Below are positions 2,588 through 23,163 of a DNA stretch of 32,992 nt, in pieces. Source of the stretch: a virus; IMG/VR virus record IMGVR_UViG_3300042566_001181, positions 1-32,992 of that record; one strand, given 5' to 3'. Each line of letters begins with the position of its first letter. The stretch's first letter is position 1. The translations under genes and the position numbers were made by a program. The notes below the pieces were generated by a model, which was given only the letters and a program-made list of their open reading frames with translations, made no database searches and had not been told where the DNA came from.

Positions 2588-3349
2588 TTACGGGCAGTGT
2601 TGCTGTATTGCTGCCATGACTTCGGCGGGAATGTTCTGGGGAATTTGGGCCACAATTCTTACCATGATGTCGCCCTGCTGTCCAGACCTATGATGTACTC
2701 CATGTGCTCGTAGGCGCATCACAGTATTGGGTTGAGTCATTGGGGGCACTGTAATAGTAAGCTCATTGCCTGTGAGTGCAGTCATGGTGATTTCACTGCC
2801 CAGGATCAGTTGCCAAATTGACACTTGAACTTCGGTGTGCAGATTTATACCTTCTCTGCGCCAATTGGGCATGGGGTTGACTCTAAACTGTACCATGAGG
2901 TCTGAACCCCCGGGACCAATTCCGCCATACTGCACTGTGTCTCCGTTGTCAATACCCCGGGGTATAGCAATTTCCACTGTGTTGGAGCCCTGTGTTGTGC
3001 CCAGTTGCACAGTTCTTGTGCTGCCATTGATCACATCCACTAAGTCAACTCCAATGGTCATGCGTATGTGGCCACGACGTGGTTGTTGCCCAAACATCTG
3101 ACTGAAAATGTCATGGATGTTTTGGCCTTGTTGAAAACCAAATCCACCAAATTGCGGCTGTGGGTTGTCGTAAGCGGCACGTTTGGCAGCATCGCCTAGT
3201 GTGTCATAGGCCGCTTGAATCTGTTGAAATTGGGCAGTGTTGCCACCCCGATCAGGATGGTGTTGCGAAGCCAGTCGACGATAGGCTCGTTTGATTTCCT
3301 CGGCAGTGGCAGTTTTTGCAACACCCAGGGTGGCGTAGTAGTCAGTCAT
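2588..3349 (-). CDS. dnaJ: DnaJ/CbpA-type J-domain co-chaperone (Hsp40)
   Basis: The N-terminal 60 residues are a J domain (YYATLGVAKTATAEEIKRAY) with the HPD tripeptide that stimulates DnaK ATPase. A Gly/Phe-rich linker follows (FGGFGFQQGQN), then the beta-rich C-terminal substrate-binding domains. The CxxCxGxG zinc-finger region of true DnaJ is missing, so this is a class B (CbpA-like) protein of 253 residues. The start is set at 3349 rather than an in-frame ATG at 3367, because the promoter -10 box lies at 3371-3376 and transcription would begin after the first ATG; AGGA in the short leader precedes the chosen start. It probably recruits host DnaK during infection, for folding or assembly; that role is inferred. 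Confidence 0.92.
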   Translation of the reverse strand: MTDYYATLGVAKTATAEEIKRAYRRLASQHHPDRGGNTAQFQQIQAAYDTLGDAAKRAAYDNPQPQFGGFGFQQGQNIHDIFSQMFGQQPRRGHIRMTIGVDLVDVINGSTRTVQLGTTQGSNTVEIAIPRGIDNGDTVQYGGIGPGGSDLMVQFRVNPMPNWRREGINLHTEVQVSIWQLILGSEITMTALTGNELTITVPPMTQPNTVMRLRAHGVHHRSGQQGDIMVRIVAQIPQNIPAEVMAAIQQHCP

Positions 3350-3350
3350 G

Positions 3351-3383
3351 AAAAAGGTCCTGTACATTTAATTATACAGGACC
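3351..3383 (-). terminator. Hairpin plus U-tract between the 73-residue gene and dnaJ, with a promoter -10 box in its loop
   Basis: On the minus strand GGTCCTGTA (3383-3375) and TACAGGACC (3364-3356) form a perfect 9-bp inverted repeat with a 10-base loop. It is followed directly by TTTTT (3355-3351). This is a rho-independent terminator shape for transcripts arriving from the lysis genes. The same segment carries the dnaJ -10 box. Confidence 0.6.
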
Positions 3384-5046: not shown

Positions 5047-6225
5047 TTAGCAGTTCCATTTACGTAGGGCTAGAGCTTTGCGTGTGGGCTTGCCATTGGG
5101 CTTTTTCATTGGTCCTTTGACTCCGCCCATTCTTGCACAGAATGATTTACGGCGCTTGGCTGCTTTGGATCCTGGCTTGAGTTTGCTGGGCTTGGTTGTG
5201 ACTGCTGTTTGTAGTTTTGAACCAGGATTCTCTCTGCGATAGCTGGCCACACCCTTGGCGTTGAGTCCACCTTTGGCGCTTTTGCCTTCTTTGCGACGCC
5301 AAGCTGCTGTTTCGTACAGTACGTTATCCGGCATGGCTTCAAACTGTTCCCACACTAGATCTTCACTCACACGATTTTTCTGGGCCATTTCTGACACCAG
5401 GTCTTGCATGGCTTCAAACATTTCGTCCACTTCAGGATCTACTTCCTCAGAGTCTTCTTCACTTTCCATGTAGTCCCATACAGCCACCAACATTGACTTG
5501 GCCACTGCGATCTTTTCTTGACACCACTCTGGCAAGTTATCACCGGTTTGAATTAGGTCGTCAATACCTGCCACAGCACGTTCCAAGGTTTCAAGATTGT
5601 TGTCGGCCATGCCTGCTTCGTCGTTGTATTCAGGGTTGAAACCTTCAGCACTGACCACTGGCTTGCCACCTTTGGGATTGGTGTTAGCAGCTCGACCCGA
5701 CACTGTGCCTTTGGTACCTTTTCCGCCTGCTGCACCAATGTGTGATGATCCTTGCCAAGTTTCACCCTTGCGTGGTTTGTGTAGCTTGCCTTTTTGTATT
5801 TCTCCACCACGAGCCAAGAAATCTGCCACAGCATCTTCCGCCACACCTTGCTCGTCGATTACCCGTGCATCACGGAAGTCTACTGTGACTGTTCGGCCGC
5901 CAACTAGTAAAACTTCAATGCTGTCATCAAAAATATCAATGACACGACCTTGTTGACCATTGCCAAGTTTTACAGTTTGCCCTTTGCGATATCCGTAGGG
6001 ATTGTCTGTACCTTCCTTCAGACCTTGTTTCTTTTTCTTTTTAGCAATAGCAATAGCAGCCTGTTGTGCAGGATTTACAGCCTCTTCAACAGATTCAGCG
6101 GGCACACAGTTGTTGACTCTAACTCCACCCTTGACCTTGGTCTTGGGGTTGCCAATTTTTTTACCTGTCCAACACTTGGGATCCAAGCGTACTTTTTCTT
6201 CTGTTCGAAAGTCTTTGAATTTCAT
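5047..6225 (-). CDS. Basic modular virion-type protein with one QGVAE motif
   Basis: 392 residues of mosaic make-up. It starts MKFKDFRTEE, reminiscent of T4 capsid-targeting leaders. Residues 1-75 are Lys-rich and end in GLKEG. A short beta-rich module follows (GYRKGQTVKLGNGQQGRVID). Then comes EQGVAED, at DNA level the same 16-base repeat as in the giant gene at 14-17 kb. A Gly/Lys linker, an acidic helical segment (EEDSEEVDPEVDEMFEAMQD) and a very basic tail follow. The tail contains KRRKSFCARMGGVKG and ends RKALALRKWNC, a C-terminal motif I recall from conserved marine-phage structural proteins. It is probably packaged or virion-associated. LKE/G and VAE/D could be prohead-protease sites. 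Start ATG overlaps the upstream stop (ATGA). Confidence 0.72.
   Translation of the reverse strand: MKFKDFRTEEKVRLDPKCWTGKKIGNPKTKVKGGVRVNNCVPAESVEEAVNPAQQAAIAIAKKKKKQGLKEGTDNPYGYRKGQTVKLGNGQQGRVIDIFDDSIEVLLVGGRTVTVDFRDARVIDEQGVAEDAVADFLARGGEIQKGKLHKPRKGETWQGSSHIGAAGGKGTKGTVSGRAANTNPKGGKPVVSAEGFNPEYNDEAGMADNNLETLERAVAGIDDLIQTGDNLPEWCQEKIAVAKSMLVAVWDYMESEEDSEEVDPEVDEMFEAMQDLVSEMAQKNRVSEDLVWEQFEAMPDNVLYETAAWRRKEGKSAKGGLNAKGVASYRRENPGSKLQTAVTTKPSKLKPGSKAAKRRKSFCARMGGVKGPMKKPNGKPTRKALALRKWNC
5835..5850 (-). repeat. Ninth copy of the 16-bp CAAGGTGTGGCGGAAG repeat, outside the main array
   Basis: CAAGGTGTGGCGGAAG on the minus strand matches the consensus of the eight copies in the gene at 14151-17318 at all 16 bases, in the same reading frame (Q-G-V-A-E). 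The 17th base differs, giving Asp instead of Gly after the Glu. The distance to the nearest other copy is about 8.7 kb. Confidence 0.9.
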
Positions 6226-10878: not shown

Positions 10879-11504
10879 ATTACTTTTACGCTCACATTTG
10901 ATACCACATAGTCCTGGGAATATTCCGTAGGTGCCGCTTCAATTCGTAATGCCTGGGCAAGTTGAAGATTGTCTGTGACTACTTTGCCTTCGTGTTTCCA
11001 CCATGCTGATAAGATACCAGCATTTTGTTTTTTAATTATTTGTGCCATGTGTTTCAGGTCTTGATAGTACTCTGAATAGTCAGGATAGGTAATGTCAAAA
11101 TGTCCACATTTTACCCACCAACCCAGGCAAGAATCATCGCCGCGGTGAACCAGTACAATGGCACAGTCAGGCCATTGTTTTCTAAGGTATTCCAGGTTTT
11201 CTTTATACGAGAAAATATGACTCTTGATAATTCTAACTCCTTTAGAGTTCAGGTTAAAAGGATAATCAAAACTGGCCTCCGCTTCTTTTTTACTCATCAC
11301 TGATAGATCATCAGGCAGTGGGCAAGCCATACCAGGATCAAAGTATGCACCTAAATGCATGAGCTCTTCTTTGCCTGATGCATCGTGGTAATAAGTCCAT
11401 TCATCTCTATAATCACTGCGATCAATGTCTGGACTGTAGTAAATGTTTTTAACTACACTGCTCCATTTACTGCCTGGTGCACCGGCTACAAAAATATATT
11501 TCAT
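10875..11504 (-). CDS. Sulfotransferase-like P-loop protein
   Basis: 209 residues. The start MKYIFVAGAPGSKWSSVVKN has a phosphate loop (GAPGSKWSS) placed as in PAPS-dependent sulfotransferases. The middle has RIIKSHIFSY, like the KTH/KSH strand of that fold, and AIVLVHRGDDSCLGWW, where the family places its 3'-phosphate-binding Arg/Ser. I recall this type in T4-like marine phages. The ATG overlaps the stop of the solute-binding-protein gene as TAATG, and the stop overlaps the oxygenase gene as ATGA. It is one of three P-loop transferase-like genes within 4 kb. The acceptor is unknown. Confidence 0.7.
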   Translation of the reverse strand: MKYIFVAGAPGSKWSSVVKNIYYSPDIDRSDYRDEWTYYHDASGKEELMHLGAYFDPGMACPLPDDLSVMSKKEAEASFDYPFNLNSKGVRIIKSHIFSYKENLEYLRKQWPDCAIVLVHRGDDSCLGWWVKCGHFDITYPDYSEYYQDLKHMAQIIKKQNAGILSAWWKHEGKVVTDNLQLAQALRIEAAPTEYSQDYVVSNVSVKVI

Positions 11505-12472
11505 TAATCTAACTTCATTTTCTTCACATATGGGATCCAGGTTTCTCGAATACTCATTATGAACTTTCGAGCTCCTTCAGGACTCTGCTCAGCAGGTACC
11601 GGAAACATCAAGTTTGAATCAAAAAACTGTTTGGCGTCGGCTGATCTAATGGCTGGCACAAACAAGTCCTGATAATACTTTACTATTTCCTTAGGAGTTC
11701 CCGGTGGTAGTGCAATCATCCAAGCACCATAAATGTTCAGACCGGGCATGCCAGAATCTTTCCACAGTGGCACGTTAGGCAGTTGAGTCAGTTTAAATTC
11801 TGATGCTAATGCAATATACTTGATTTTTCCTGCTTTATAAAGACCATAGGCCACTGCTGTAGGCATGATTCCAAACTCTACCTGATTGCCAGCCACGTCC
11901 TGTGCGGCTTGTGCAGGACCACGATACATCACAGACTTGACTTGATTGTGGTTGCCTTGGCCTCGATCCATCAAGTATTCAAACACCAGCTTGTGAGCGC
12001 CAGCACCTAGACCAAATGTAATAGGCTTGTTAGTGTTCTTGAGACGTGCTAGTAATTCTTGCGGAGTGTTAGTAGGAGAATCAATATTGGCAATCACAGC
12101 CAATGGAGATTTAGCAATAGTTGTGACCAATTCCATGTCCAGCGGGTTGAATTTGATCTGATCCGGATACCACTGTTCGATAGTGGTAAAAACCCCTTGC
12201 TGACTACTAATATACAGATTGTGTCCATCACCAGGCAGTTTCATAAAATGGTTTAGTGCTACTACTTCGTCAGCGCCTGGGCGATTTGTAACTACAAATG
12301 TGATGTTTGGGTTGGCTTTTTCTACAATGGCTGCAACTCCCCTAAATGAGGTTTCGTTACCAGATCCGGGTGCATATCCCACAGTGACGTTAACCACTTT
12401 GGGCGGTGTAAATGCTAATGCTAGCATCGGAAGTGCAACAGCAAATGTTGCTAATAATTTTTTGAGGTTCAT
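11504..12472 (-). CDS. TctC/Bug-family periplasmic solute-binding protein
   Basis: 322 residues, full length for the tripartite tricarboxylate transporter receptor (TctC/Bug) family. Residues 1-20 are a Sec signal peptide (KKLLATFAVALPMLALA). Family features include VTVGYAPGSGNETSFR at the first ligand loop, NRPGADEVVALN, ITFGLGAGAHK and a conserved C-terminal lobe. The protein binds small acids in the periplasm and hands them to TctAB permeases; no such permease genes are here. Bug proteins are hugely expanded in Burkholderiales, so this looks like a gene taken from a betaproteobacterial host. It has AAGGAA before ATG and a possible promoter of its own. Confidence 0.87.
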   Translation of the reverse strand: MNLKKLLATFAVALPMLALAFTPPKVVNVTVGYAPGSGNETSFRGVAAIVEKANPNITFVVTNRPGADEVVALNHFMKLPGDGHNLYISSQQGVFTTIEQWYPDQIKFNPLDMELVTTIAKSPLAVIANIDSPTNTPQELLARLKNTNKPITFGLGAGAHKLVFEYLMDRGQGNHNQVKSVMYRGPAQAAQDVAGNQVEFGIMPTAVAYGLYKAGKIKYIALASEFKLTQLPNVPLWKDSGMPGLNIYGAWMIALPPGTPKEIVKYYQDLFVPAIRSADAKQFFDSNLMFPVPAEQSPEGARKFIMSIRETWIPYVKKMKLD

Positions 12473-12562: not shown

Positions 12563-13297
12563 ATGAATAACAAAATTTTTTCTCTCTTAATAAAAAATTT
12601 GCAGACTGCATTTGCTTTACCCAAGTATGCAAACATTGCAATCGATGCAAATACTGTTGTAGATTCGTTGCCATGGACTCCGGCTCGATATCGCAAATTC
12701 AAAGACGCAGTAGAAGCAGAGCTACATCTGCCATGTGATTACGTGGGCACCCTAAAAGACATTGTTGATGATCTTAGCGAGCGTTACATATTGCGATTTT
12801 TTGCAGAAATCTGGAAGCCGCGTACAGGCGACTACGAACACACAGGCTGGGAACTAGCTGACGAAGTTAACAAGCTGAATCCAGAAAAAGTCTTAGATGT
12901 AGGTTGCGGCTATCATCCATTCAAGGGGCGTATCAACAATATTGTTGGCATTGATCCTTACAATGACGCTGCTGATTATGAAGTAGATATACTGGATTAC
13001 AAAGTAAAACCTGAGAGCTACGACGTGATCATTGCGCTGGGCAGTATCAACTTTAATTCACAGGATGAAATTGAAGAAAGATTCTCGCACTGTGTGAATC
13101 TCTTGCGCCCAGGTGGCAAATTCTTTTTGCGAGCCAACCCAGGAATTCCACACCGAACAGGCCCGTATGTGGATATCTTTCCCTGGAGCTTTGAAGTTGT
13201 TAATGCGTTTGCAGAAAAATACAACTTGAATCTAGACACATTCAAAAAAGAACCTACCGAACTGGGTAGGTTGTATTTTGTTTATACTCGACGTTAA
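12563..13297 (+). CDS. SAM-dependent methyltransferase (class I)
   Basis: 244 residues. The Rossmann motif I is KVLDVGCGYHPFKG near residue 110, followed by an acidic residue ending strand 2 (VGIDPYND). Motif II/III is SYDVIIALGSINF, and the later LLRPGGKFFLRANPG is the post-motif typical of class I enzymes. The N-terminal 100 residues are an extra domain I do not recognise. The acceptor is unknown; small-molecule, glycan or protein methylation are possible. It is a plus-strand singleton between minus-strand genes and overlaps the convergent 98-residue gene by four bases at the stop codons. No clear Shine-Dalgarno precedes ATG. Confidence 0.82.
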   Translation: MNNKIFSLLIKNLQTAFALPKYANIAIDANTVVDSLPWTPARYRKFKDAVEAELHLPCDYVGTLKDIVDDLSERYILRFFAEIWKPRTGDYEHTGWELADEVNKLNPEKVLDVGCGYHPFKGRINNIVGIDPYNDAADYEVDILDYKVKPESYDVIIALGSINFNSQDEIEERFSHCVNLLRPGGKFFLRANPGIPHRTGPYVDIFPWSFEVVNAFAEKYNLNLDTFKKEPTELGRLYFVYTRR

Positions 13298-13590
13298 TAG
13301 CCTGCTCGGGCTATTTCAGCACCGCGATTAAAGCTGTCGCTCCAGGACGCAGTGCTGACACCGCCGCGATCCTTGCTCCATTTGTAGCCTGCTCTGTGTC
13401 CCGAGCAGTCAGTTTTGCAGGGACTCATGTTCATGAACATCAGCTCGTCCAGTTGTTCCTGGTCAGGCTCGGCTTTTTTACTACGATAGCGCGGCACAGG
13501 GTTGTGCCCGCGTGGAGGTCTTGACCCTTGTCGGGCTGCTCTACGTGGGTTAGTACCCAGATCAGCTTCAACGAATTCTTGTGCTCTCAT
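13294..13590 (-). CDS. Small basic protein with capsid-targeting-like N-terminus
   Basis: 98 residues. It starts MRAQEFVEADLG, close in pattern to the T4 internal-protein leader MKTYQEFIAE-A, in which gp21 cleaves after the Glu. The following 40 residues are Arg/Pro-rich (NPRRAARQGSRPPRGHNPVP), a DNA-binding-like composition. The last part has two Cys and aromatic residues (SPCKTDCSGHRAGYKWS). I suggest a packaged internal head protein, an inference from the leader and basic character. It overlaps the upstream cysteine-rich gene by 23 bases and lies four genes downstream in the same operon as the giant modular protein. Confidence 0.68.
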   Translation of the reverse strand: MRAQEFVEADLGTNPRRAARQGSRPPRGHNPVPRYRSKKAEPDQEQLDELMFMNMSPCKTDCSGHRAGYKWSKDRGGVSTASWSDSFNRGAEIARAGY

Positions 13591-14002
13591 CTTTTTTATC
13601 TGTTACAGGGCCGCCTTCAACCCAGGCATCACAGGTGCGCAGTGCAGCACACTTGAATTTCAAAAACTTACAATAGCCTAAATCGCCAGCATCAATTGTG
13701 CCTTGTGGGTCTGACCCAGGCTCTGAGCCAATGCCTTTGGCAATACAGTCTAGCATTTTGTCTGTGATATCAAATGCAGCACAATTTCCGCAGCGGTTGT
13801 TTTTGACTGATTCAATGTCATTGGTGTTCCATTTGTCAGCCAATTCAGCCCAGTATTCTTGATTGGGCTCGTTGGGATTCAACGGACCATAATGGTATTC
13901 TTCAATGGCTTTTTGACGATTTTTTAGATTCAATTCAATGCTCTGGGTAGCTGGTGGGCAACCAGATTGCACTGCTTCTATTAGATTGATAAAATTTCTC
14001 AT
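13568..14002 (-). CDS. Cysteine-rich protein with capsid-targeting-like N-terminus
   Basis: 144 residues. It opens MRNFINLIEAVQSG; LIE followed by Ala fits the T4 prohead-protease consensus (L/I-x-E, then A/G) at residue 9. The C-terminal half holds CGNCAAFD, LDCIAKGIG, GYCKFLKFKC and RTCDAW: seven Cys in a pattern that could bind a metal or an iron-sulfur cluster, somewhat like high-potential iron-sulfur proteins. I recall similar GYCKF-type proteins among uncultured marine phages. ATG overlaps the stop of the 51-residue gene (ATGA). Likely virion-associated; the actual cofactor is unknown. Confidence 0.72.
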   Translation of the reverse strand: MRNFINLIEAVQSGCPPATQSIELNLKNRQKAIEEYHYGPLNPNEPNQEYWAELADKWNTNDIESVKNNRCGNCAAFDITDKMLDCIAKGIGSEPGSDPQGTIDAGDLGYCKFLKFKCAALRTCDAWVEGGPVTDKKDESTRIR

Positions 14003-14154
14003 GGGTTTAGTCTGAATCTATGACTTTGTAGTAGCGCTGCTATTGGCATAGCTCGTTTGATCCGGGCCTGGGGCTGCTGAGGTTGTACAGGAGCTTCAGG
14101 TTTTGTAGCGCCAGGCAGTGTTCTTATAACACGACCGTTAGCAGTGCTTCTCAT
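13999..14154 (-). CDS. Small basic proline/glutamine-rich protein, 51 residues
   Basis: A short frame exactly filling the space between two genes. Its ATG (14154) overlaps the TGA of the giant modular gene as ATGA, and its own TGA overlaps the ATG of the cysteine-rich gene, again as ATGA. This double junction is strong evidence that it is translated. The product begins MRSTANGRVIRTLPGATKPE, has a PQQPQ-rich centre and ends with a basic segment (RIKRAMPIAAL, then QSHRFRLNP). Net charge is strongly positive. I do not recognise a family; a small internal or virion protein is possible from context. Confidence 0.7.
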   Translation of the reverse strand: MRSTANGRVIRTLPGATKPEAPVQPQQPQARIKRAMPIAALLQSHRFRLNP

Positions 14155-17100
14155 TTTTTGGTACCTGGTTGAACTGCTGTGGGCACATTACGATACACAC
14201 GTTTGTTGGGGTCATAAACTGTTTTCATTGGTCCTGCGCCTGCTAGCTTTTTAAGGCGGGCCATGGCAGCATCAAATGCATCAGCATCCATGTTGCCAAC
14301 TTTCTCGCCTTCGTCCAAGCCATCAGTTTGTGTAGCACCTTCGCCGTCGGCATCAAAAGCTACCATTTCTACTTTGGGCCACAAACGTGCAGGCACATAC
14401 AGAATACCCGAAGTTTCGTCATGATCAATCTGGTCGCCAAAGCGAGCCATTACTGCATTGTATGCCCGTTCACTGTTGACGCTAAAGCCCACGGTGTCAG
14501 TATCGTCGATACCGCTGTATCCGCCTTCCGCCACACCTTCCTCCGGCAATACGCCTTTAGGACCTGCCATTGGTTTTGTTTGAATTCGCTTCTTAATTAA
14601 ATCGTGCTTGGTTTGGTCAGGTCCATCAGATGCCATTATATCATCAAAGTCTCTGGTAGCAACACGCAGCCTCTCCATGTCTTTGTTGGACCATTGACGA
14701 TCTTTCTCACCGCCTTCCGCCACACCTTGGTCAACGCTTTCTCTTTGTAAAGATTGATTATCCATTGGTCTAAAACCCATTATCATAATAGATGGAACAT
14801 TACCAGTAGAATCTAAAGGCATTGTTTGGGTTTTTTTAACAGCATCAATTACAGCCTGGTCCCACTCTGAGTTACCGCTTGATTTTTCTAATTTTACTCC
14901 GGTAATTGTACCATCAGAAGATACTCGAACTTCAATTTCTGCACGTGGATTACCTGAGGTGTCGCCAGAATAATGAATGTTTGGTCTTATTCTAGCTATA
15001 ATTCTTGATGCGTAATTCGGAGGTGTTTTTTGATTAGGAGGTTCTTTTACTACTGGTGCTTGAACGGGTTCAGGTTTGCCAATAGTGACAGCCACAGGCA
15101 TATTTGGATTTTGGCATCTATTAGAGACTCCGTGTATTTTTTGTATGACCTGTAATTCGTTTTGAAAATTTACCTGTTGTCCGACCTGGACAGTCGGAGG
15201 CATGCATGCATTTGCCGCTGCATCTGGGTTAGTGTTAGGTAATGGTATTATAAAGAAAAACCAGGCTTTCGCAGGCATAGGTGATAGTCCAGTGCCTGCT
15301 ACTGCCGCTGCACCCATGCCTTTTAAGAATCCTCTACGGTCTATTTCTTCCAAGGAGCCTTCCGCCACACCTTGCTTCTTATATCCAGCACGATATTGAT
15401 TATGGTCGTAGTTCACATCTGCGCCTGCTTTAGGATCAAACGGATGCGGATTCTTGTATGGCTTGCCCTGTGCTGCAACACCTTGTTGGTATGCTGTAAG
15501 TGGCTTGTCTTGACGACTTTGTTGTTTCTTAGGATTGCGAATATGAATAGGAGCCTGTGCCACTACAATAGGAGCACCTTCCGCCACACCTTGCTGACCT
15601 TGTAGTTTAGCAATACGAGATTTTAGTTGTGCTACTTCTTTAGGACGCTTGTATGGACCTGATGCAATTTGCGCTAAACGCTCTTGATACTTTTGAATCA
15701 AGTAATCAGGAGTCATATAACTATCGTTTCCATCTTGTCCTGTTTTTCCTCTGTAGGCAACTCCAGTATGCTGGTCACGATACATGCCGCTGGCAGTTTT
15801 CATTCTCTTGCCTTCCGCCACACCTTGTTTTAATGATTGTTGTAGGTATTGTTCGCCCTCACCAGTAACGTACCAATATCCATCATCATCTACAATATAA
15901 CTGTTGCTACTCAAACTGTCTAACACATTATCATACTCAGCAGTTCTTGATTCATCTTCTTGGAAATCTAATCCTAATTTGGCCGCGGTATAGATAGCAT
16001 GTAAAACCAATAATTTACCAAATCCTTTGCCCTTGAATTCTGGATAAACCTCGGCTATGCTACGACCTGTAGTAGCATCATATTGGTATACACCCACCTG
16101 CTCGTTATTAACTGTCATGGTAGTGACAAATTTATTTTTACCCTTTTGTACACGAAAACTAATTCCATTATCCTGTGAGCCTTCCGCCACACCTTGCTCT
16201 GCTACTTTGACAAACCCAATACCATCACATTTGCCACATTTGTATTTCTTGGCATCTGGACGATTCATAGGATGAACTTCACCGTCTGGTGTTTTATAAA
16301 CATAGCCCTTGCCGTGGCATCTTTTGCAACCAGTCTGTGTTCTCTTTATAGTGGGACCTGGCATATGGTCAACTTCAGGATATCCGCCTTCCGCCACACC
16401 TTGCTTGACAAAGTGATATCCGCCAAACTGTTCGGGATTGCGTTCCAAGAACTCGCCGGCTTTTTCGATAGCTTGGCGGTCACCCTTTACAACATAGGTT
16501 TGTATGTCATCATCTTCTGTGTAATCTTTGCTGACAATCTCCAAGCCAGCTTTGTTGAATACATTGACAGCACGACCTTGCATGTAGTTTCCGTATCCAG
16601 AGAACTCTGCGTACATGTTCTTGAAGCCTTCCGCCACACCCTGAGTTTCGCCTGGGCCGTATGCTGTGATCACAATGTTGCCACGCAAATCAGGTTGTTG
16701 TTTCAACAAGTCTTGTGCAGCAGCCACTGCGGCAGCTTTGCCCACAAACTCATCACTGATGTGTTCTTGTGTGTCTTTGCGCTTGAGCCAGAAGTTGCCA
16801 GTGCGTTCATATTCTTGGCGCTGTGCATTTTGTTGTGCCAGCTGGGCATCAATCTTTTCGCTGCCACCAGGTTCACGCTCACGACGCAGTGCTGCTTGAC
16901 GGTTAGCATCAATCTGTTGCTGCTCAGGTTCAGTTTGTGCTTCTGCCATGCTTTCATTTTGTGGCTCGTAGTACCAGCCCATGCCTGGGTCGTCGTCTCC
17001 GGTGCGTCGGGGATTGTCAAACTTGAAATAGGCAATCTGATCACGGCCCTCTTGATCGTCCCAGTAGCCCCGGAACTCGCCTGTGGCTTTGTCAAACTCT

Positions 17101-17318
17101 TCGTCGTCAAAATGATCTGCTTCAAACCGTCCAAAGAAGTCTATGCTACGGCTATAGTGGTCTGGCTGTGGATACTTGTAGGGATCATCACCGGCACCAT
17201 CGTCATCTCCGCCACCGCCAATACGACCACCACCCATGCGATTGCCACCACCACCTGCAGGTGCAAATTCGTTTAGTGTGCCCCCGGGGCGGTTTTCAAA
17301 CAAGTGGTTTAGTAACAT
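14151..17318 (-). CDS. Giant modular protein with eight GVAEG junctions, candidate prohead-processed polyprotein
   Basis: 1055 residues. After an N-terminus MLLNHLFENRPGG and a Gly/Asp-rich region, (Q/E)GVAEG occurs with its Glu at residues 230, 310, 379, 502, 580, 653, 868 and 931. The segments between are unrelated: 231-310 small alpha/beta; 311-379 two CxxCxGxG pairs (C331/C334, C361/C364) as in DnaJ zinc fingers; 380-502 GNAT-like with FKGKGFGKL; 503-580 and 581-653 unknown, charged; 654-868 a twin-arginine signal (DRRGFLKG) followed by a TolA/TonB-type C-terminal domain (about 767-860); 869-931 helical; 932-1055 alpha/beta. VAE-G resembles the T4 gp21 cleavage consensus, so I infer a polyprotein cut in the prohead. 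Start overlaps the upstream stop (TAATG). Alternative: an uncut beads-on-a-string virion protein. Confidence 0.8.
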   Translation of the reverse strand: MLLNHLFENRPGGTLNEFAPAGGGGNRMGGGRIGGGGDDDGAGDDPYKYPQPDHYSRSIDFFGRFEADHFDDEEFDKATGEFRGYWDDQEGRDQIAYFKFDNPRRTGDDDPGMGWYYEPQNESMAEAQTEPEQQQIDANRQAALRREREPGGSEKIDAQLAQQNAQRQEYERTGNFWLKRKDTQEHISDEFVGKAAAVAAAQDLLKQQPDLRGNIVITAYGPGETQGVAEGFKNMYAEFSGYGNYMQGRAVNVFNKAGLEIVSKDYTEDDDIQTYVVKGDRQAIEKAGEFLERNPEQFGGYHFVKQGVAEGGYPEVDHMPGPTIKRTQTGCKRCHGKGYVYKTPDGEVHPMNRPDAKKYKCGKCDGIGFVKVAEQGVAEGSQDNGISFRVQKGKNKFVTTMTVNNEQVGVYQYDATTGRSIAEVYPEFKGKGFGKLLVLHAIYTAAKLGLDFQEDESRTAEYDNVLDSLSSNSYIVDDDGYWYVTGEGEQYLQQSLKQGVAEGKRMKTASGMYRDQHTGVAYRGKTGQDGNDSYMTPDYLIQKYQERLAQIASGPYKRPKEVAQLKSRIAKLQGQQGVAEGAPIVVAQAPIHIRNPKKQQSRQDKPLTAYQQGVAAQGKPYKNPHPFDPKAGADVNYDHNQYRAGYKKQGVAEGSLEEIDRRGFLKGMGAAAVAGTGLSPMPAKAWFFFIIPLPNTNPDAAANACMPPTVQVGQQVNFQNELQVIQKIHGVSNRCQNPNMPVAVTIGKPEPVQAPVVKEPPNQKTPPNYASRIIARIRPNIHYSGDTSGNPRAEIEVRVSSDGTITGVKLEKSSGNSEWDQAVIDAVKKTQTMPLDSTGNVPSIMIMGFRPMDNQSLQRESVDQGVAEGGEKDRQWSNKDMERLRVATRDFDDIMASDGPDQTKHDLIKKRIQTKPMAGPKGVLPEEGVAEGGYSGIDDTDTVGFSVNSERAYNAVMARFGDQIDHDETSGILYVPARLWPKVEMVAFDADGEGATQTDGLDEGEKVGNMDADAFDAAMARLKKLAGAGPMKTVYDPNKRVYRNVPTAVQPGTKK
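14525..16643 (-). repeat. Array of eight CAAGGTGTGGCGGAAG repeats separating cassettes
   Basis: Copies lie at 14525-14540, 14714-14729, 15359-15374, 15578-15593, 15812-15827, 16181-16196, 16388-16403 and 16628-16643. Six match CAAGGTGTGGCGGAAG fully; 14525 has GAA for CAA and 16628 has CAG for CAA. The next base is G in all eight. Spacing is irregular (about 190-645 bases) but always keeps the reading frame. Conservation includes synonymous third positions (GGT, GTG, GCG, GAA), which protein selection alone would not require. Confidence 0.92.
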
Positions 17319-17884
17319 TACAATATCCCTGCTGCGGCCATTAATGCCTTGACATCACTCCGCGGAGTATGAATCTGCACTGGCTTCAAGCCGGCAGCAG
17401 CTCTCATTTCATTTAGATCAGATTCATTTCTGGCTCTATATGCGTCGGGTGTTAGTGGAATGCGTTTGATAAATTCATCCTGGTCCCAGCCAAAGTCACC
17501 ATCCTCATACACAAACTGCCAGTCTTCAGGCTCAAATTCTGTCAGGGTAGAAAGATCATCCAACAAGGTTTGAACATGGCGAGGTACTGCGCTGCGGCGA
17601 CGAATTTCCACATACACCAGATACCGGCCAGGCTTGATTTCACCGGGGCTGACATCAGCATCTAGTACAAAATCATAGCCTTTTTCAAACCAGCCCATTA
17701 GATCACGTGCTGCTTGCTTGTCGCGCACAAAAAAGCTGAGTACAATCACATCAGCATCTTCGCCCAGTTTGGCAGAAAATTCATCCACGTGCACTGTGGG
17801 TTTCATGATGCCGTCAAGATCTTTGTACTGTAGGCCTTCCAGCAGCAAGGGGCGGGCAGGGTCAAAAGGATTAAAAGTATTCAT
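17318..17884 (-). CDS. Conserved phage protein of unknown function with LLLEG near the N-terminus
   Basis: 188 residues. It begins MNTFNPFDPARPLLLEGLQY; LLE followed by Gly at residue 16 fits the T4-type prohead protease consensus, so a short leader could be removed. The core (DADVIVLSFFVRDKQAARDL, then FVLDADVSPGEIKPGRYLVY) has the alternation of an alpha/beta domain, and I have a weak memory of the DADVSPG stretch in T4-like marine phages. The C-terminal part is acidic and helical. Stop and next start overlap as TAATG; the upstream gene ends two bases before ATG. Likely virion-related by context, with no clear function. Confidence 0.72.
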   Translation of the reverse strand: MNTFNPFDPARPLLLEGLQYKDLDGIMKPTVHVDEFSAKLGEDADVIVLSFFVRDKQAARDLMGWFEKGYDFVLDADVSPGEIKPGRYLVYVEIRRRSAVPRHVQTLLDDLSTLTEFEPEDWQFVYEDGDFGWDQDEFIKRIPLTPDAYRARNESDLNEMRAAAGLKPVQIHTPRSDVKALMAAAGIL

Positions 17885-17886
17885 GA

Positions 17887-18495
17887 TTAAATCTGTGGTT
17901 GTCCTGGCGCAGCAGCTGGTGCGCCTCCAGGGTTGGGTGTGTCCAGGCTGGCCTGTGCATCATCGGCAGCCTCATCACTCTGATTGGCTTCCTGATCTAG
18001 ATCTTGCTCATAGGCCTGATCCAGTTCTTCAAGATCAATATCCTCATCTTCCATTTCAATTGATCCAGTGCGAATATCATTCATCAAGGCCTTGGGCATG
18101 ACAATTTCCACCAGCCACACTTCCTGTGTCATTAACTTGGCTTTTTTGGTGCCAGGGCGATAATCACTGGGGTCTGTGATCTTTACAGGAATCTTTATTT
18201 CTTTGCGTTGATAACTTATTTCGCAGTCGTAGTTCAACAGTCTGCGTCCGCCACGTGGATCGGGCATGAGTTTGAGTGGCCACATAAATGTGCAGCTCAC
18301 ACGATATCGGCCAATTTCAGGACCGGCCACAAGCTCGCCAATTTCCCAGTTTTTAAATGCGTAGATATCAACTTCGTCCAGCACACGCTCAAAATCCAAC
18401 AGCGTGGTCAAACTGCCGTCGCTCATGTAGATGTCGCGGATGTTGTCAGCAACTTGCCAGTAATCAGTGTGGTCTTTAAAGAGTTCTCGGTCCAT
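17887..18495 (-). CDS. Conserved phage protein, unknown function, acidic proline-rich tail
   Basis: 202 residues from ATG at 18495; a TTG at 18519 would add eight residues but has no ribosome site either. The N-terminal 140 residues look like a compact mixed domain (DRELFKDHTDYWQVADNIRD; EIGRYRVSCTFMWPLKLMPD). The tail (about 150-202) is acidic, then Ala/Pro/Gly-rich and likely disordered. It is first in the minus-strand run that leads to the giant modular protein, with a two-base gap or overlaps throughout, so it is likely co-transcribed with the virion-type genes. No Shine-Dalgarno; a CTAAATA box ends five bases before ATG. Confidence 0.72.
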   Translation of the reverse strand: MDRELFKDHTDYWQVADNIRDIYMSDGSLTTLLDFERVLDEVDIYAFKNWEIGELVAGPEIGRYRVSCTFMWPLKLMPDPRGGRRLLNYDCEISYQRKEIKIPVKITDPSDYRPGTKKAKLMTQEVWLVEIVMPKALMNDIRTGSIEMEDEDIDLEELDQAYEQDLDQEANQSDEAADDAQASLDTPNPGGAPAAAPGQPQI

Positions 18496-18500
18496 GCGTA

Positions 18501-18561
18501 TATTTAGTCGATTGACCAAGAGCAGGGTTTTTGTGGAATACGCCGCCAGGTCAGTATTTAG
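18501..18561 (-). promoter_or_regulatory. Two CTAAATA late-type boxes before the virion-type operon
   Basis: CTAAATA occurs at 18507-18501, five bases (TACGC) before ATG at 18495, and again at 18561-18555. The proximal box would give a leaderless transcript. The distal one would give a leader of about 55 bases, which however shows no obvious Shine-Dalgarno. The core matches the T4 late -10 box except for its first bases. Confidence 0.5.
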
Positions 18562-19988: not shown

Positions 19989-20017
19989 ATTATAATAGAA
20001 AGAATAGTATATGTCAA
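19989..20017 (-). promoter_or_regulatory. Perfect sigma70 promoter for the HAD gene, covering the endonuclease start codon
   Basis: TTGACA (20017-20012) and TATAAT (19994-19989) on the minus strand are separated by 17 bases. ATG of the HAD gene follows six bases after the -10 box. The -35 hexamer lies on the first codons of the divergent GIY-YIG gene (ATG at 20011). ATTATAAT at 19989-19996 is a palindrome, so a -10-like box also faces right. Confidence 0.8.
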
Positions 20018-20880
20018 GTAAAATTTTTTATGTTTATGAGATTTTGAATCCACTAACTCAAACCGTTTTTTATGTAGGGATTACATCAAGAACAGCAGAA
20101 CTCCGATATAAAGAACATATACGGGAGACTAGAACTAAAATAGTAAATTTAGAAAAAGTTAACGAAATTAGCAACATCTTATCTGCAAACTTAGTTCCCG
20201 AAGTCAAGGTTGTATTTGAATCGTTAACTAAAGAAGAAGCAATTGACCGAGAAACACATCTAATAGATTTATACGGTAGAAGAAAAGACGGTGGTATCCT
20301 TACTAATATCTCCAAAGGGGGAGAACATCACACATTGTCTAATGAAACTAAAGAACAATTATCCAAAAACAGAAAAAACAAGACGTATGAAGAATTATTT
20401 GGAGACGAACGAGCCAAACAATTCAAGTCTGATATATCTAATAGAAATTCAGGCACAAATAATCCAATGTATGGAAAAACACATACTATAGAGTCAAGAC
20501 AAAAAATTTCTGCAAAACTTAAAGGAAATGTGTCTCATCCAATATCAGATTACCAAAAACAAAAAATAAGAGAATCTAATAGTAAGCGTATATGGACCGA
20601 CGATATGCGACAAAAATTATCAGAGTCTCAAAAACAAAGGAGATTAGAAAGACCTGAAAGTTTTAAAACTCATGCTTGGGCCTCAGAATCAAGAAAGAAA
20701 ATTAGCCATGCTACAAAAAGTCGTGCTATCAAATATAACTTTGTTCATCCTAACCACGGTACATTTTGCGGAACAACTGGAGATCTTGCCACCGCATATA
20801 ATTTTAGCAGTGGCTCCGAAGCATACAAACTAGTTAAAGGACTGTATAAAAGTTACAAAGGTTGGAAACTAATCAACTAG
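20011..20880 (+). CDS. GIY-YIG homing endonuclease with NUMOD repeats
   Basis: 289 residues. The GIY-YIG nuclease core is FYVYEILNPLTQTVFYVGIT, with the catalytic Arg in TSRTAELRYKEH and the Glu in EAIDRETHLIDLYG. The DNA-binding part has NUMOD3-type units (NPMYGKTHTIESRQKISAKL, then SDYQKQKIRESNSK and DDMRQKLSESQK) and a NUMOD1-like end (GTTGDLATAYNFSSGSEAYK). It is freestanding, on the plus strand between two minus-strand genes, and visibly more AT- and Lys-rich than its surroundings, as expected of a mobile seg/hef-type gene. It would cut cognate phage genomes lacking the insertion. Its stop overlaps the convergent 101-residue gene by eight bases. Confidence 0.93.
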   Translation: MSSKIFYVYEILNPLTQTVFYVGITSRTAELRYKEHIRETRTKIVNLEKVNEISNILSANLVPEVKVVFESLTKEEAIDRETHLIDLYGRRKDGGILTNISKGGEHHTLSNETKEQLSKNRKNKTYEELFGDERAKQFKSDISNRNSGTNNPMYGKTHTIESRQKISAKLKGNVSHPISDYQKQKIRESNSKRIWTDDMRQKLSESQKQRRLERPESFKTHAWASESRKKISHATKSRAIKYNFVHPNHGTFCGTTGDLATAYNFSSGSEAYKLVKGLYKSYKGWKLIN

Positions 20881-21178
20881 GATCAGTTTCTGCGGGTTGT
20901 GCTTGGGGTTCTTCAGATTTGACAATTTCGTATCCATTTTCTTTCAGTAGCCGATCTATTGTGTTGGCATAGTGTTGATAATAGTAAGCAACAATTCGAT
21001 CAAAATCTTTTGGTACTTGTTGCCCACTCATGCTAGATTTTACTACCTTGAGCTCACGAAAGTCAAGAATAACATTGCCTGTTTGCAAATCTCTGCGTTT
21101 GATATTTCGAGCCAGTTGCATTTGCTCGTCAATTTTGCCATTAGGCCTGGTCACGTAGGTTAGAATTAGGTATCTCAT
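20873..21178 (-). CDS. Small conserved phage protein, unknown function
   Basis: 101 residues beginning MRYLILTYVTRPNGKIDEQM. The pattern is a short beta-rich start, NVILDFRELKVVKSSM, then a helical YYYQHYANTIDRLLKENGYE and a Glu/Pro/Gln tail. I recall proteins of this type near replication genes of T4-like cyanophages but know no function; the clamp-loader region suggests a replication or regulatory role. It overlaps the end of the radical SAM gene by 38 bases, and its 3' end overlaps the convergent homing endonuclease by eight bases. No good ribosome site is visible. Confidence 0.68.
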   Translation of the reverse strand: MRYLILTYVTRPNGKIDEQMQLARNIKRRDLQTGNVILDFRELKVVKSSMSGQQVPKDFDRIVAYYYQHYANTIDRLLKENGYEIVKSEEPQAQPAETDPS

Positions 21179-22235
21179 ATTTTTTCATTATGTGGTTATA
21201 TGTATCTAGATCTGCTGCCTTGGGTGCACAAAGTCCACAATAGCAGCGTTGTTTGGCACACTGTATCACAGGACGATCATGATCTTGAGCCTGATCAATC
21301 ATGGGCTGAGTGTTTGATAAATGCCCAATTGGTCCCACGGTGCCATCAAAATTCATTTTGCAATCTTTGTTCACGTAGACTTCGCCGTTGACTTGCTTGA
21401 TATACAAAAAGAAATGATTTACACTACAGTACCAACCTGGGAATTTGTTTGACACAAACTTTTGCGGGTCTCGACGATTTTGATCCGCACACAAACTTCT
21501 GCCCCCGCAGCAGGCACGACCTGTGTCAGCCAGGTCCATTTTGTTGTCTCGTACCACAGCATGATCCAGGGATTTGTTGTAGAGTTTTTCAAACCAAATT
21601 ACCTGTTGTTGATTGTAGTTGAAATCATGCTCAATTGCATGATCCAATTGTCTCGGAAGATGTTTGATATCATTTTTCTTTAGCCATTCAATCATGTTTT
21701 GCGCATCGGCAAACTTGTCCGGCTCAGAATGCATGAGCACCACACACTTTAGTCTACCACCCGCAGATTTGATTTTTAACAAGTTATCTTGAAATTGATG
21801 TTTTTGTTCAGGAGTGTTGTCAGTGTGATAACTTACTGTAAACTCGTCAATCAAAGGAATGATTTTGTCCAAGCGGTGTGGCGCAATTATGGCATTGGTA
21901 GTTGTGGTAACAGTTAAATGCCATTGCTGTTTGTATTGCTCATGACGAGATCGCAGCACCGATAAAATTTCCACAATGTGTGGATGGTGCAAAGCTTCGC
22001 CGCCATAAACATTCAGGATCACATATCGAATGCCCTGGGGCTTGGTGCTCATGTACGCATCAGCGTACTCAAACATAAAGTCTATGGTTTTCAAGCACTC
22101 AGCCCTGGGCGGGTGTCGTGTGCTGTTGTCATGACCACCGTAGATACCAGTTTCACAATAGCTGCAATCCAGATTGCATTTCATTGTGAGTTCCCAATCC
22201 AACAGGAATGTGATCCTGTTGTTGGGATCAATCAC
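21141..22235 (-). CDS. Radical SAM enzyme with C-terminal cysteine cluster
   Basis: About 364 residues from GTG at 22235, placed four bases after the gp44 stop; a TTG at 22262 is an alternative start. The iron-sulfur motif is CNLDCSYC (CxxxCxxC), followed by VILNVYGGEALHHP, the Gly-Gly-Glu SAM motif. A TIM-barrel-like middle follows (TVSYHTDN; LKCVVLMHSEP). The C-terminal quarter has many Cys (CCGGRSLC, GWYCSV, KDCKMNF, CAKQRCYCGLC), as in SPASM/twitch domains that bind extra 4Fe-4S clusters. Such enzymes modify peptides or build cofactors by radical chemistry. The substrate is unknown. It sits inside the replication/chaperone operon, right behind gp44. Confidence 0.85.
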   Translation of the reverse strand: MIDPNNRITFLLDWELTMKCNLDCSYCETGIYGGHDNSTRHPPRAECLKTIDFMFEYADAYMSTKPQGIRYVILNVYGGEALHHPHIVEILSVLRSRHEQYKQQWHLTVTTTTNAIIAPHRLDKIIPLIDEFTVSYHTDNTPEQKHQFQDNLLKIKSAGGRLKCVVLMHSEPDKFADAQNMIEWLKKNDIKHLPRQLDHAIEHDFNYNQQQVIWFEKLYNKSLDHAVVRDNKMDLADTGRACCGGRSLCADQNRRDPQKFVSNKFPGWYCSVNHFFLYIKQVNGEVYVNKDCKMNFDGTVGPIGHLSNTQPMIDQAQDHDRPVIQCAKQRCYCGLCAPKAADLDTYNHIMKKYEIPNSNLRDQA

Positions 22236-22239
22236 AGGC

Positions 22240-23163
22240 TCAAGCGATGTTGCCAAGTTCAATTAAAGTAGCACTCAGGTTGATTTCTTGATCTGTGACC
22301 AAGGGAATGTTGGCAATGCCGTTGCGAATAATCACAATGGCTTGATCCTGCTGCTCAGCTGTTTTACCAAACAGTTCAAGGTTGTCGTACATCCAGCGAA
22401 AAATCTCATCTGATTCTTCGGCACTGGCACTTTGACACAGCAAAGTACGAGCTGCACGAATCTTGCCTTGTTTGAACAGATCCACACAGTCCAGCTTCCA
22501 GTCTCGAACAGCACGATCGCTTTCGCCCGGGGGTGCAAGTTTTCCAGTTACTGAATTGGGTTGTACCAAGTTCAAACACTTGCGTAGATCTGGATAAGTG
22601 GCCTTGACATAAGTATCCAAGGTGTCCAGATCAAATTCTACATTTTCTGACACCAGCACAGTGGCCACTCTAGCAGTGAACTCTGTATGATCTGTTTTGG
22701 TGATGTGAAAGCCTTGGCAACGTGAGTGCAAGGCCGGGATAATCTTGTTGGGATAGTTACAAGTAAGAATAAACCGCACAGTTTGGCTGTAGTCTTCCAT
22801 CAAGTTGCGTAGTGCGGGCTGTACCGAGTTGGGATTCATGTAGTCTGCTTCGTCAATCAACACCACTTTGAATGCACCAAATGGCATGGTTTGACAAAAG
22901 CTGATCAGCTTGTCCACCCACTCAACCTTGCGAGCTTCCTTTGAACCGTTGGCGTACATCACGTCATATTCGTCTACGCCTAGTTCATTGATCAACAGTT
23001 TGGCCAGGGTTGTTTTACCTGTACCAGCACTACCACTCAACATCAAGTGAGGAATACTTCCGTCTCGGATCCACTGTGTTACCTGCTCACGTTGCGCAGT
23101 GTCAACAAACACATAACCATCCACAGTGTTGGGACGATATTTTTCTACCCATAATTCTTTCAT
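22240..23163 (-). CDS. 44: Sliding clamp loader large subunit, T4 gp44-like (RFC small-subunit type)
   Basis: 307 residues from ATG at 23163, which overlaps the preceding stop as ATGA. AAA+ clamp-loader motifs in order: ELWVEKYRPNTVDGYV (RFC box), HLMLSGSAGTGKTTLAK (Walker A), VVLIDEADYMN (Walker B), RFILTCNYPNKI (sensor 1) and HSRCQGF (SRC arginine finger). The C-terminal third is the collar domain. With gp62 it would load the gp45 clamp on primed DNA for the phage replisome; gp62 and gp45 are not recognised in this window. It is part of a long minus-strand operon that probably starts at the promoter near 25.9 kb. Confidence 0.95.
   Translation of the reverse strand: MKELWVEKYRPNTVDGYVFVDTAQREQVTQWIRDGSIPHLMLSGSAGTGKTTLAKLLINELGVDEYDVMYANGSKEARKVEWVDKLISFCQTMPFGAFKVVLIDEADYMNPNSVQPALRNLMEDYSQTVRFILTCNYPNKIIPALHSRCQGFHITKTDHTEFTARVATVLVSENVEFDLDTLDTYVKATYPDLRKCLNLVQPNSVTGKLAPPGESDRAVRDWKLDCVDLFKQGKIRAARTLLCQSASAEESDEIFRWMYDNLELFGKTAEQQDQAIVIIRNGIANIPLVTDQEINLSATLIELGNIA

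Follow-up and report, generated by a model that had tools for sequence, protein, structure and literature searches.

The window analysed here, 32,992 nucleotides of IMG/VR virus record IMGVR_UViG_3300042566_001181 (positions 1 to 32,992), carries on its minus strand, at 14151-17318, a gene for a 1055-residue protein in which nine mutually dissimilar segments are joined by eight copies of (Q/E)GVAEG, encoded by one conserved DNA word. We consider it probable that the product is a capsid-targeted internal-head polyprotein of a large T4-type myovirus, which would be cut at its hydrophobic-x-Glu seams, and that the seam word also serves the exchange of cassettes. The reading of the seams as putative prohead-protease sites is well supported by comparison, and it is from such comparison that we infer packaging, cleavage and ejection of the seam proteins.

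According to this proposal, a short T4-type capsid-targeting leader would bring the chain into the prohead core, where the S77 prohead protease would cut after the Glu of hydrophobic-x-Glu, both behind the leader and within every VAE↓G seam (the arrow marks a presumptive cut). The cuts would free small unrelated domains, which would stay in the head and be ejected with the DNA. The seam is also a word of about 18 bp that is conserved as DNA and separates the cassettes without breaking the frame. If it were a place of exchange or duplication, cassettes could be gained, lost and reordered with the frame kept, and every new joint would again bear a cutting site. The chances seem to us about even that one DNA word is both the exchange seam and the prohead-protease site, in which case each in-frame recombination would yield a new head-delivered effector polyprotein that dissects itself in the capsid.

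The gene and its eight seams

The initial annotation had described eight (Q/E)GVAEG copies, 63-215 residues apart, between unrelated segments. Our recount agrees: the first Gly lies at residues 227, 307, 376, 499, 577, 650, 865 and 928, and blastp among the nine segments gave no convincing match (best non-self E = 0.24), which rules out tandem repetition of similar domains. The observation proved larger than first noted, as it includes identity at the DNA level, a ninth copy at 5833-5850, spread through many phage contigs, and leaders. The 14-base word GGTGTGGCGGAAGG is identical at all eight junctions, and the 18-mer CAAGGTGTGGCGGAAGGC is exact at five of them with one mismatch at the other three. 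The window holds nine word sites with at most three mismatches, whereas 100 shuffles averaged 0.03 such sites and never gave more than one, so that a chance repeat is ruled out. The parts of the gene are as follows; the seams were located by motif scan.

14151-17318, minus strand: 1055-residue cassette polyprotein gene, eight seams and nine segments (open reading frame and motif scan)
17295-17318, minus strand: MLLNHLFE↓N, a predicted capsid-targeting leader; TLNE↓F at residue 17 may be a further site
16626-16643, minus strand: seam 1 (CAG GGT GTG GCG GAA GGC)
16404-16628, minus strand: cassette 1, 75 residues
16386-16403, minus strand: seam 2
16197-16388, minus strand: cassette 2, 64 residues, DnaJ-type CxxCxGxG zinc motif (weak Pfam match, below cut-off); relatives in loci L034 and L115
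16179-16196, minus strand: seam 3
15828-16181, minus strand: cassette 3, 118 residues, GNAT-like acetyltransferase, found in 43 IMG/VR loci
15810-15827, minus strand: seam 4
15594-15812, minus strand: cassette 4, 73 residues
15576-15593, minus strand: seam 5
15375-15578, minus strand: cassette 5, 68 residues; relative in locus L117
15357-15374, minus strand: seam 6
14730-15359, minus strand: cassette 6, 210 residues, Tat-signal-like start (Pfam TAT_signal E 0.002, below cut-off) and TonB C-terminal domain (TonB_2 E 2e-17)
14712-14729, minus strand: seam 7
14541-14714, minus strand: cassette 7, 58 residues; relative in locus L151
14523-14540, minus strand: seam 8 (GAA replacing CAA)
14154-14525, minus strand: C-terminal segment, 124 residues, its last part conserved in the syntenic gene of contig G001

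In Pfam, TonB_2 scored above the cut-off, the DnaJ-type and GNAT matches were weak and the other segments gave none. A PHROGs search with the protein found no match, and neither the whole protein nor its GNAT cassette matched any of 50,697 phage records (E 0.001 and 0.01). Cassette 6 places its Tat-like start and TonB domain mid-way through a phage protein (14730-15359); the sole IMG/VR locus found for it is a near-identical contig.

A conserved DNA word between exchangeable cassettes

The suggestion that related genomes might carry the motif between other domains was borne out: an exact 17-mer search of IMG/VR found at least 120 stretches, with cassettes beside unrelated neighbours. Counts for loci 1-120 are made among the matches listed. 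All 163 copies in these 120 stretches lie inside open frames and read QGVAEG, and at each of the 163 this frame is the longest of the three on its strand. Together with the window, these loci hold 140 seam-bearing open reading frames (ORFs) and 171 segments flanked by a seam on either side. One seam was counted in 57 ORFs, two in 37, three in 23, four in 15, six in 6, seven in 1 and eight, the maximum, in 1; the 83 ORFs with two or more suggest that such a gene may give several products.

Three cassettes of word-bearing ORFs were used as baits, namely GNAT (43 loci), W (80 of 280 loci kept) and H (53), and the loci fetched in this way were therefore not selected by the word. Among them, the exact 12-mer GGTGTGGCGGAA stands at 172 of 236 unique-context GVAE seams, whereas 0.9% would be expected from the codon usage of the ORFs concerned; the seam is therefore a DNA-level element. 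Conservation is limited to about -6 to +14 of the seam and is at background level on both sides (319 unique contexts). Directly after QGVAEG, a second hydrophobic-x-Glu, SLNE, follows in L037, L041, L063, L068, L087, L103, L109 and L114 (163 listed copies), as if these joints were double sites. We also considered a bacterial origin of the word and rejected it: the 26 matches of the 18-mer in a genome collection, at loci of 53-74% G+C which were unsearched for cassette relatives, are read as chance; there is one copy per locus, and the QGVAEG frame is the longest of three at 16 of the 26.

Of the 171 segments lying between two seams, 85 have a relative in another locus (at least 80% cover); only segments bounded in this way were used after single-linkage clustering of all segments had collapsed into one cluster of 175. 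Flanks were compared for full-length ungapped cassette matches with flanks only (42 loci for H, 22 for GNAT, 34 for W), a flank being called unrelated below 45% identity over 54 nt. In pairs of loci sharing a cassette the left flank was unrelated in 820/861 (H), 219/231 (GNAT) and 541/561 (W), and the right flank in 820/861, 216/231 and 534/561, respectively. The cassettes are therefore units that change neighbours, and recombination at the word would be the likely cause of this mosaic. Both GNAT and H are predicted to fold as compact domains with a looser first block (pLDDT 89.4 and 84.1); the best PDB matches of the GNAT model are mostly named acetyltransferases, though all are weak (lowest E 3.6e-3; the first two have TM 0.43 and 0.57). 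Across 16 long motif ORFs only a handful of domains were recognised by Pfam, namely GNAT, cytidine deaminase, LysM and some DUFs, and, below the cut-off, 5'-nucleotidase and a Tat signal.

Cassettes have turned over at a syntenic locus as well. The contig G022 (209,543 bp) contains the window at 115173-148164 (reversed, 99.997%) and the 1055-residue gene at 130847-134011. G022 in turn runs colinear with 83-291 kb of G001, a contig of 299,983 bp from a sister phage, with matches for 183 of 307 called genes. The corresponding slot in G001 holds a 378-residue protein with joints DVAEG, QGVAEG and QGVAEG and with different cassettes, which has the C-terminal tail in common with the window gene. 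It starts MRANQFIS, which is leader-like without an obvious Glu.

Protease-site residues at word-free joints and leaders

The initial annotation took VAE-G for the site of the prohead protease. The junction is primarily a DNA word, conserved where exchangeable cassettes meet, so that the repetition of VAEG is by itself no evidence of a protease site. Were the repeat a scar in the DNA and nothing more, however, joints that lack the word would be expected to show no pattern. In 35 unique word-free left contexts of the W cassette (at least five mismatches), P1 is Glu in all 35 and P3 is V, I, L, M or F in 34. Many of these contexts are gene starts (MKANEFITE↓KWSQ, MKINEVITE↓EWSQ) and others are internal joints (TLDE↓AW, ALNE↓KW). 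For the three cassettes together, [VILMF]xE is present in 56/62 left and 59/71 right contexts without a G-V-A-E-like seam, compared with 27.7% of random windows of the same ORFs.

The starts of the genes tell the same. Among the 81 seam genes with a readable start, [VILMF]xE ends at residue 7-15 in 61, against 19.6 for shuffled N-termini; other genes have such a leader in 271 of 1182 cases (166.9 expected). A stricter regular expression gave 35/81 versus 3.6 for the motif genes and 131/1182 versus 30.4 for the others. T4 IPII and IPIII begin MKTYQEFIAE↓A, and leaders such as MKANEFITE resemble that capsid-targeting sequence. In L173, the contig of which starts one codon before the Met, the GNAT cassette follows a leader and is itself followed by a stop, so that it probably also occurs as a stand-alone protein. 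It is this retention of hydrophobic-x-Glu at word-free joints and in leaders that points to a protease site.

The same data bear on the notion that the word acts chiefly as a DNA element, targeted for example by a homing-type nuclease or by a transposition-like process, which spreads for its own sake and is neutral for the protein. The sharp DNA edges of the word, its near identity across phages and the GIY-YIG/NUMOD3 endonuclease gene near by, at 20011-20880, would suit such an element. However, we give it little credence given the single reading frame of all 163 listed copies, the location of copies mostly in leader-bearing genes (61/81) and the P3 and P1 residues retained at the word-free W joints.

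Head genes and virion proteins of related phages

An S77 protease of the gp21 type was found in 6 of 21 long contigs, and gp23 in the same six, the sister phage G001 among them; in five contigs the distance from the protease to the terminase downstream is 38-64 kb. At the presumptive cut the gp23 of the six contigs reads L(A/K/L)E↓(N/S)A, and T4 gp23 is cut at LTE65↓A, its propeptide being given as 65 residues (PMC5694885).

Isolated cyanophages contain relatives of the cassettes. Among 50,697 phage records, 17 cyanophage records match the W cassette, with 30-42% of its length covered; the genes in question lie close to gp22/gp23 (P-TIM68), between gp16 and gp17 (S-SM2) or adjoining terS (DSL-LC02). 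In S-SM2 the T4-GC119 protein is encoded beside the W-cassette gene; its final segment resembles by eye the DUF6321 segment of the second seam-bearing protein in the window (5047-6225), and it has relatives in 488 of the 50,697 records. For S-SCSM1, mass spectrometry of virions identified 45 proteins (PMC9602691), and ORFs 29, 91, 92 and 93, among others, carry the virion protein label in its record, which we assumed to be the mass spectrometry result. These four are the ones that matched (142, 19, 4 and 4 hits) out of six labelled proteins searched against the ORFs of loci 1-311. ORF91 (NMNAT, labelled virion protein; L372:38819-40048) begins MKSFLQFLKE↓A, a clear T4-type leader, and NMNAT-like proteins matching it are present in 19 loci. 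ORF93 (69 residues) matches at 73% the L037 cassette that stands behind QGVAEGSLNE. Capsid targeting and the candidate prohead-protease site draw indirect support from the leaders, the word-free joints, the S77 protease and gp23 in 6/21 contigs and the S-SCSM1 labels.

One could argue that the chain is cut by another protease, either a host enzyme after injection or a Clp-type machine of the phage, for which the ClpA-like ATPase gene at 256-2520 could be cited. Since the leaders are of the T4 capsid-targeting type and the sites resemble S77 protease sites, we give this possibility even less credence than a selfish DNA element.

Evidence against cleavage at the seams

A number of results weigh against cleavage by the prohead protease. 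Exchange alone, without a protease, would give an identical DNA word. The word-free left contexts of GNAT and H are few and have the site at P3-P1 in 0/11 and 0/4, and a wide, noisy set of boundaries has P1 Glu at only 24/63 word-free boundaries on the left and 7/58 on the right. The Glu beside W might belong to the W domain itself, although the hydrophobic P3 and the leaders argue for a P1 site. An earlier, different leader expression applied to all genes was barely above shuffles (9 versus 6.1 in G022, 15 versus 7.9 in G001). The T4 gp21 site is L/I-x-E, and Val at P3 is seen in leaders too (MKANEFVTE) but in none of the six major capsid proteins (gp23) examined.

The other 15 of the 21 long contigs showed no S77 protease, nor did G022, and a profile of the six proteases found no match in ten contigs. 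Contig ends may explain some of these cases: G005 and G013 end 39-40 kb on the protease side of the terminase, so that the protease would be off the contig at four of the five observed distances, and G022 does not cover the part of G001 that carries the protease. This explanation does not cover the 262-kb contig G010. Of the labelled S-SCSM1 proteins, ORFs 89 and 90 matched no ORF of loci 1-311, and what matched ORF92 spans only 26-28 residues. The T4-GC119 relative of S-SM1 is labelled hypothetical despite a measured virion proteome, in which 41 proteins were found (PMC3037559).

These points leave room for packaging without internal cuts, where the protease would remove the leader only, the cassettes would be injected as one polyvalent multidomain protein, and the seam would be no more than a linker and a scar of recombination. 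Conservation of the DNA word goes far beyond that of the residues it encodes, phage proteins of the polyvalent type are known with 2-15 domains (PMC5512222), and the SPN3US cuts in the available part of PMC10052503 all give N-terminal propeptides, except for self-cleavage of the protease. Nevertheless, we regard an uncut chain as unlikely, because hydrophobic-x-Glu is kept at word-free cassette ends as it is at leader ends, and because cassettes have stand-alone relatives, S-SCSM1 ORF93 and probably L173.

Neighbouring genes in the window

Other features of the window that bear on a head polyprotein are listed below.

5047-6225, minus strand: second seam-bearing protein, leader-like start MKFKDFRTE (Arg at P3), C-terminal DUF6321 (Pfam and sequence)
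5833-5850, minus strand: ninth seam, QGVAED, inside ORF 5047-6225 (motif scan)
13294-13590, minus strand: neighbour gene with leader MRAQEFVE↓A
13568-14002, minus strand: neighbour gene with leader MRNFINLIE↓A
17318-17884, minus strand: upstream neighbour, virion structural, phrog_13138 (head and packaging; PHROGs)
17887-18519, minus strand: virion structural gene, phrog_12928 (head and packaging; PHROGs)

The GIY-YIG/NUMOD3 gene is on the plus strand and is flanked by minus-strand genes, and the ClpA-like ATPase gene adjoins a DnaJ-like gene (2588-3367). The window also encodes a TctC-type tricarboxylate-binding protein (11504-12472), a similar gene being found at the syntenic place in G001, and a radical SAM protein (21141-22262; Pfam E 1.2e-6, just under the cut-off).

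Implications and comparison with known systems

If the head-polyprotein reading is true, phages would make polyproteins for injection in which the joint itself is the cutting site, allowing simple shuffling of injected effectors, and this could account for the quick change of early host-takeover proteins in large phages. The DNA word and the leader would give a handle for finding many injected proteins that lack an assigned function. Such a scheme would also load several proteins into phage heads from one gene, and a single gene of these large uncultured phages could thereby bring a number of different proteins into a bacterium.

A literature search with most subscription journals outside its scope found neither 'QGVAEG' nor a phage polyprotein of such design. 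Prohead-protease processing in phiKZ and SPN3US is alike in its cuts after Glu in S/A-x-E or A-x-E and in its ejected proteins; the SPN3US cuts, as far as they are described, remove N-terminal propeptides and do not release several mature domains. Polyvalent proteins (PMC5512222) likewise unite a large number of unrelated domains in a single phage protein, which is presumed to be injected. Their marker domains (MPTase, ParB-like DNase, methylase-helicase, PBECR) were found by Pfam neither in the 1055-residue protein (E 0.1) nor in the 16 long motif ORFs (E 0.001), and the in-frame repeated DNA seam and the leaders are features of the seam genes that the available part of that paper does not name. 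The PeSL elements of T4-type phages (PMC4503421) are also repeated sequences that act as a seam for module exchange; as described there they consist of a promoter and a stem-loop between genes, whereas the GVAEG seam is coding, in frame and inside genes (163/163 listed copies).

The T4-GC119 proteins of S-SM2 and S-SM1 and ORF29 of S-SCSM1 have cassettes in common with the seam genes, their gene is located in the gp16-gp17 (terS-terL) region and the S-SCSM1 copy is labelled a virion protein; the three sequences have diverse joints without GVAEG repeats. The internal proteins IPI-III and Alt of T4, which have capsid-targeting sequences cut by gp21, share with the seam genes a leader of about ten residues ending in hydrophobic-x-Glu and the T4-type head genes, and are likewise small, diverse and exchangeable. 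In T4, however, each gene gives one mature protein, whereas the seam genes join up to nine segments, through eight seams, in one chain.

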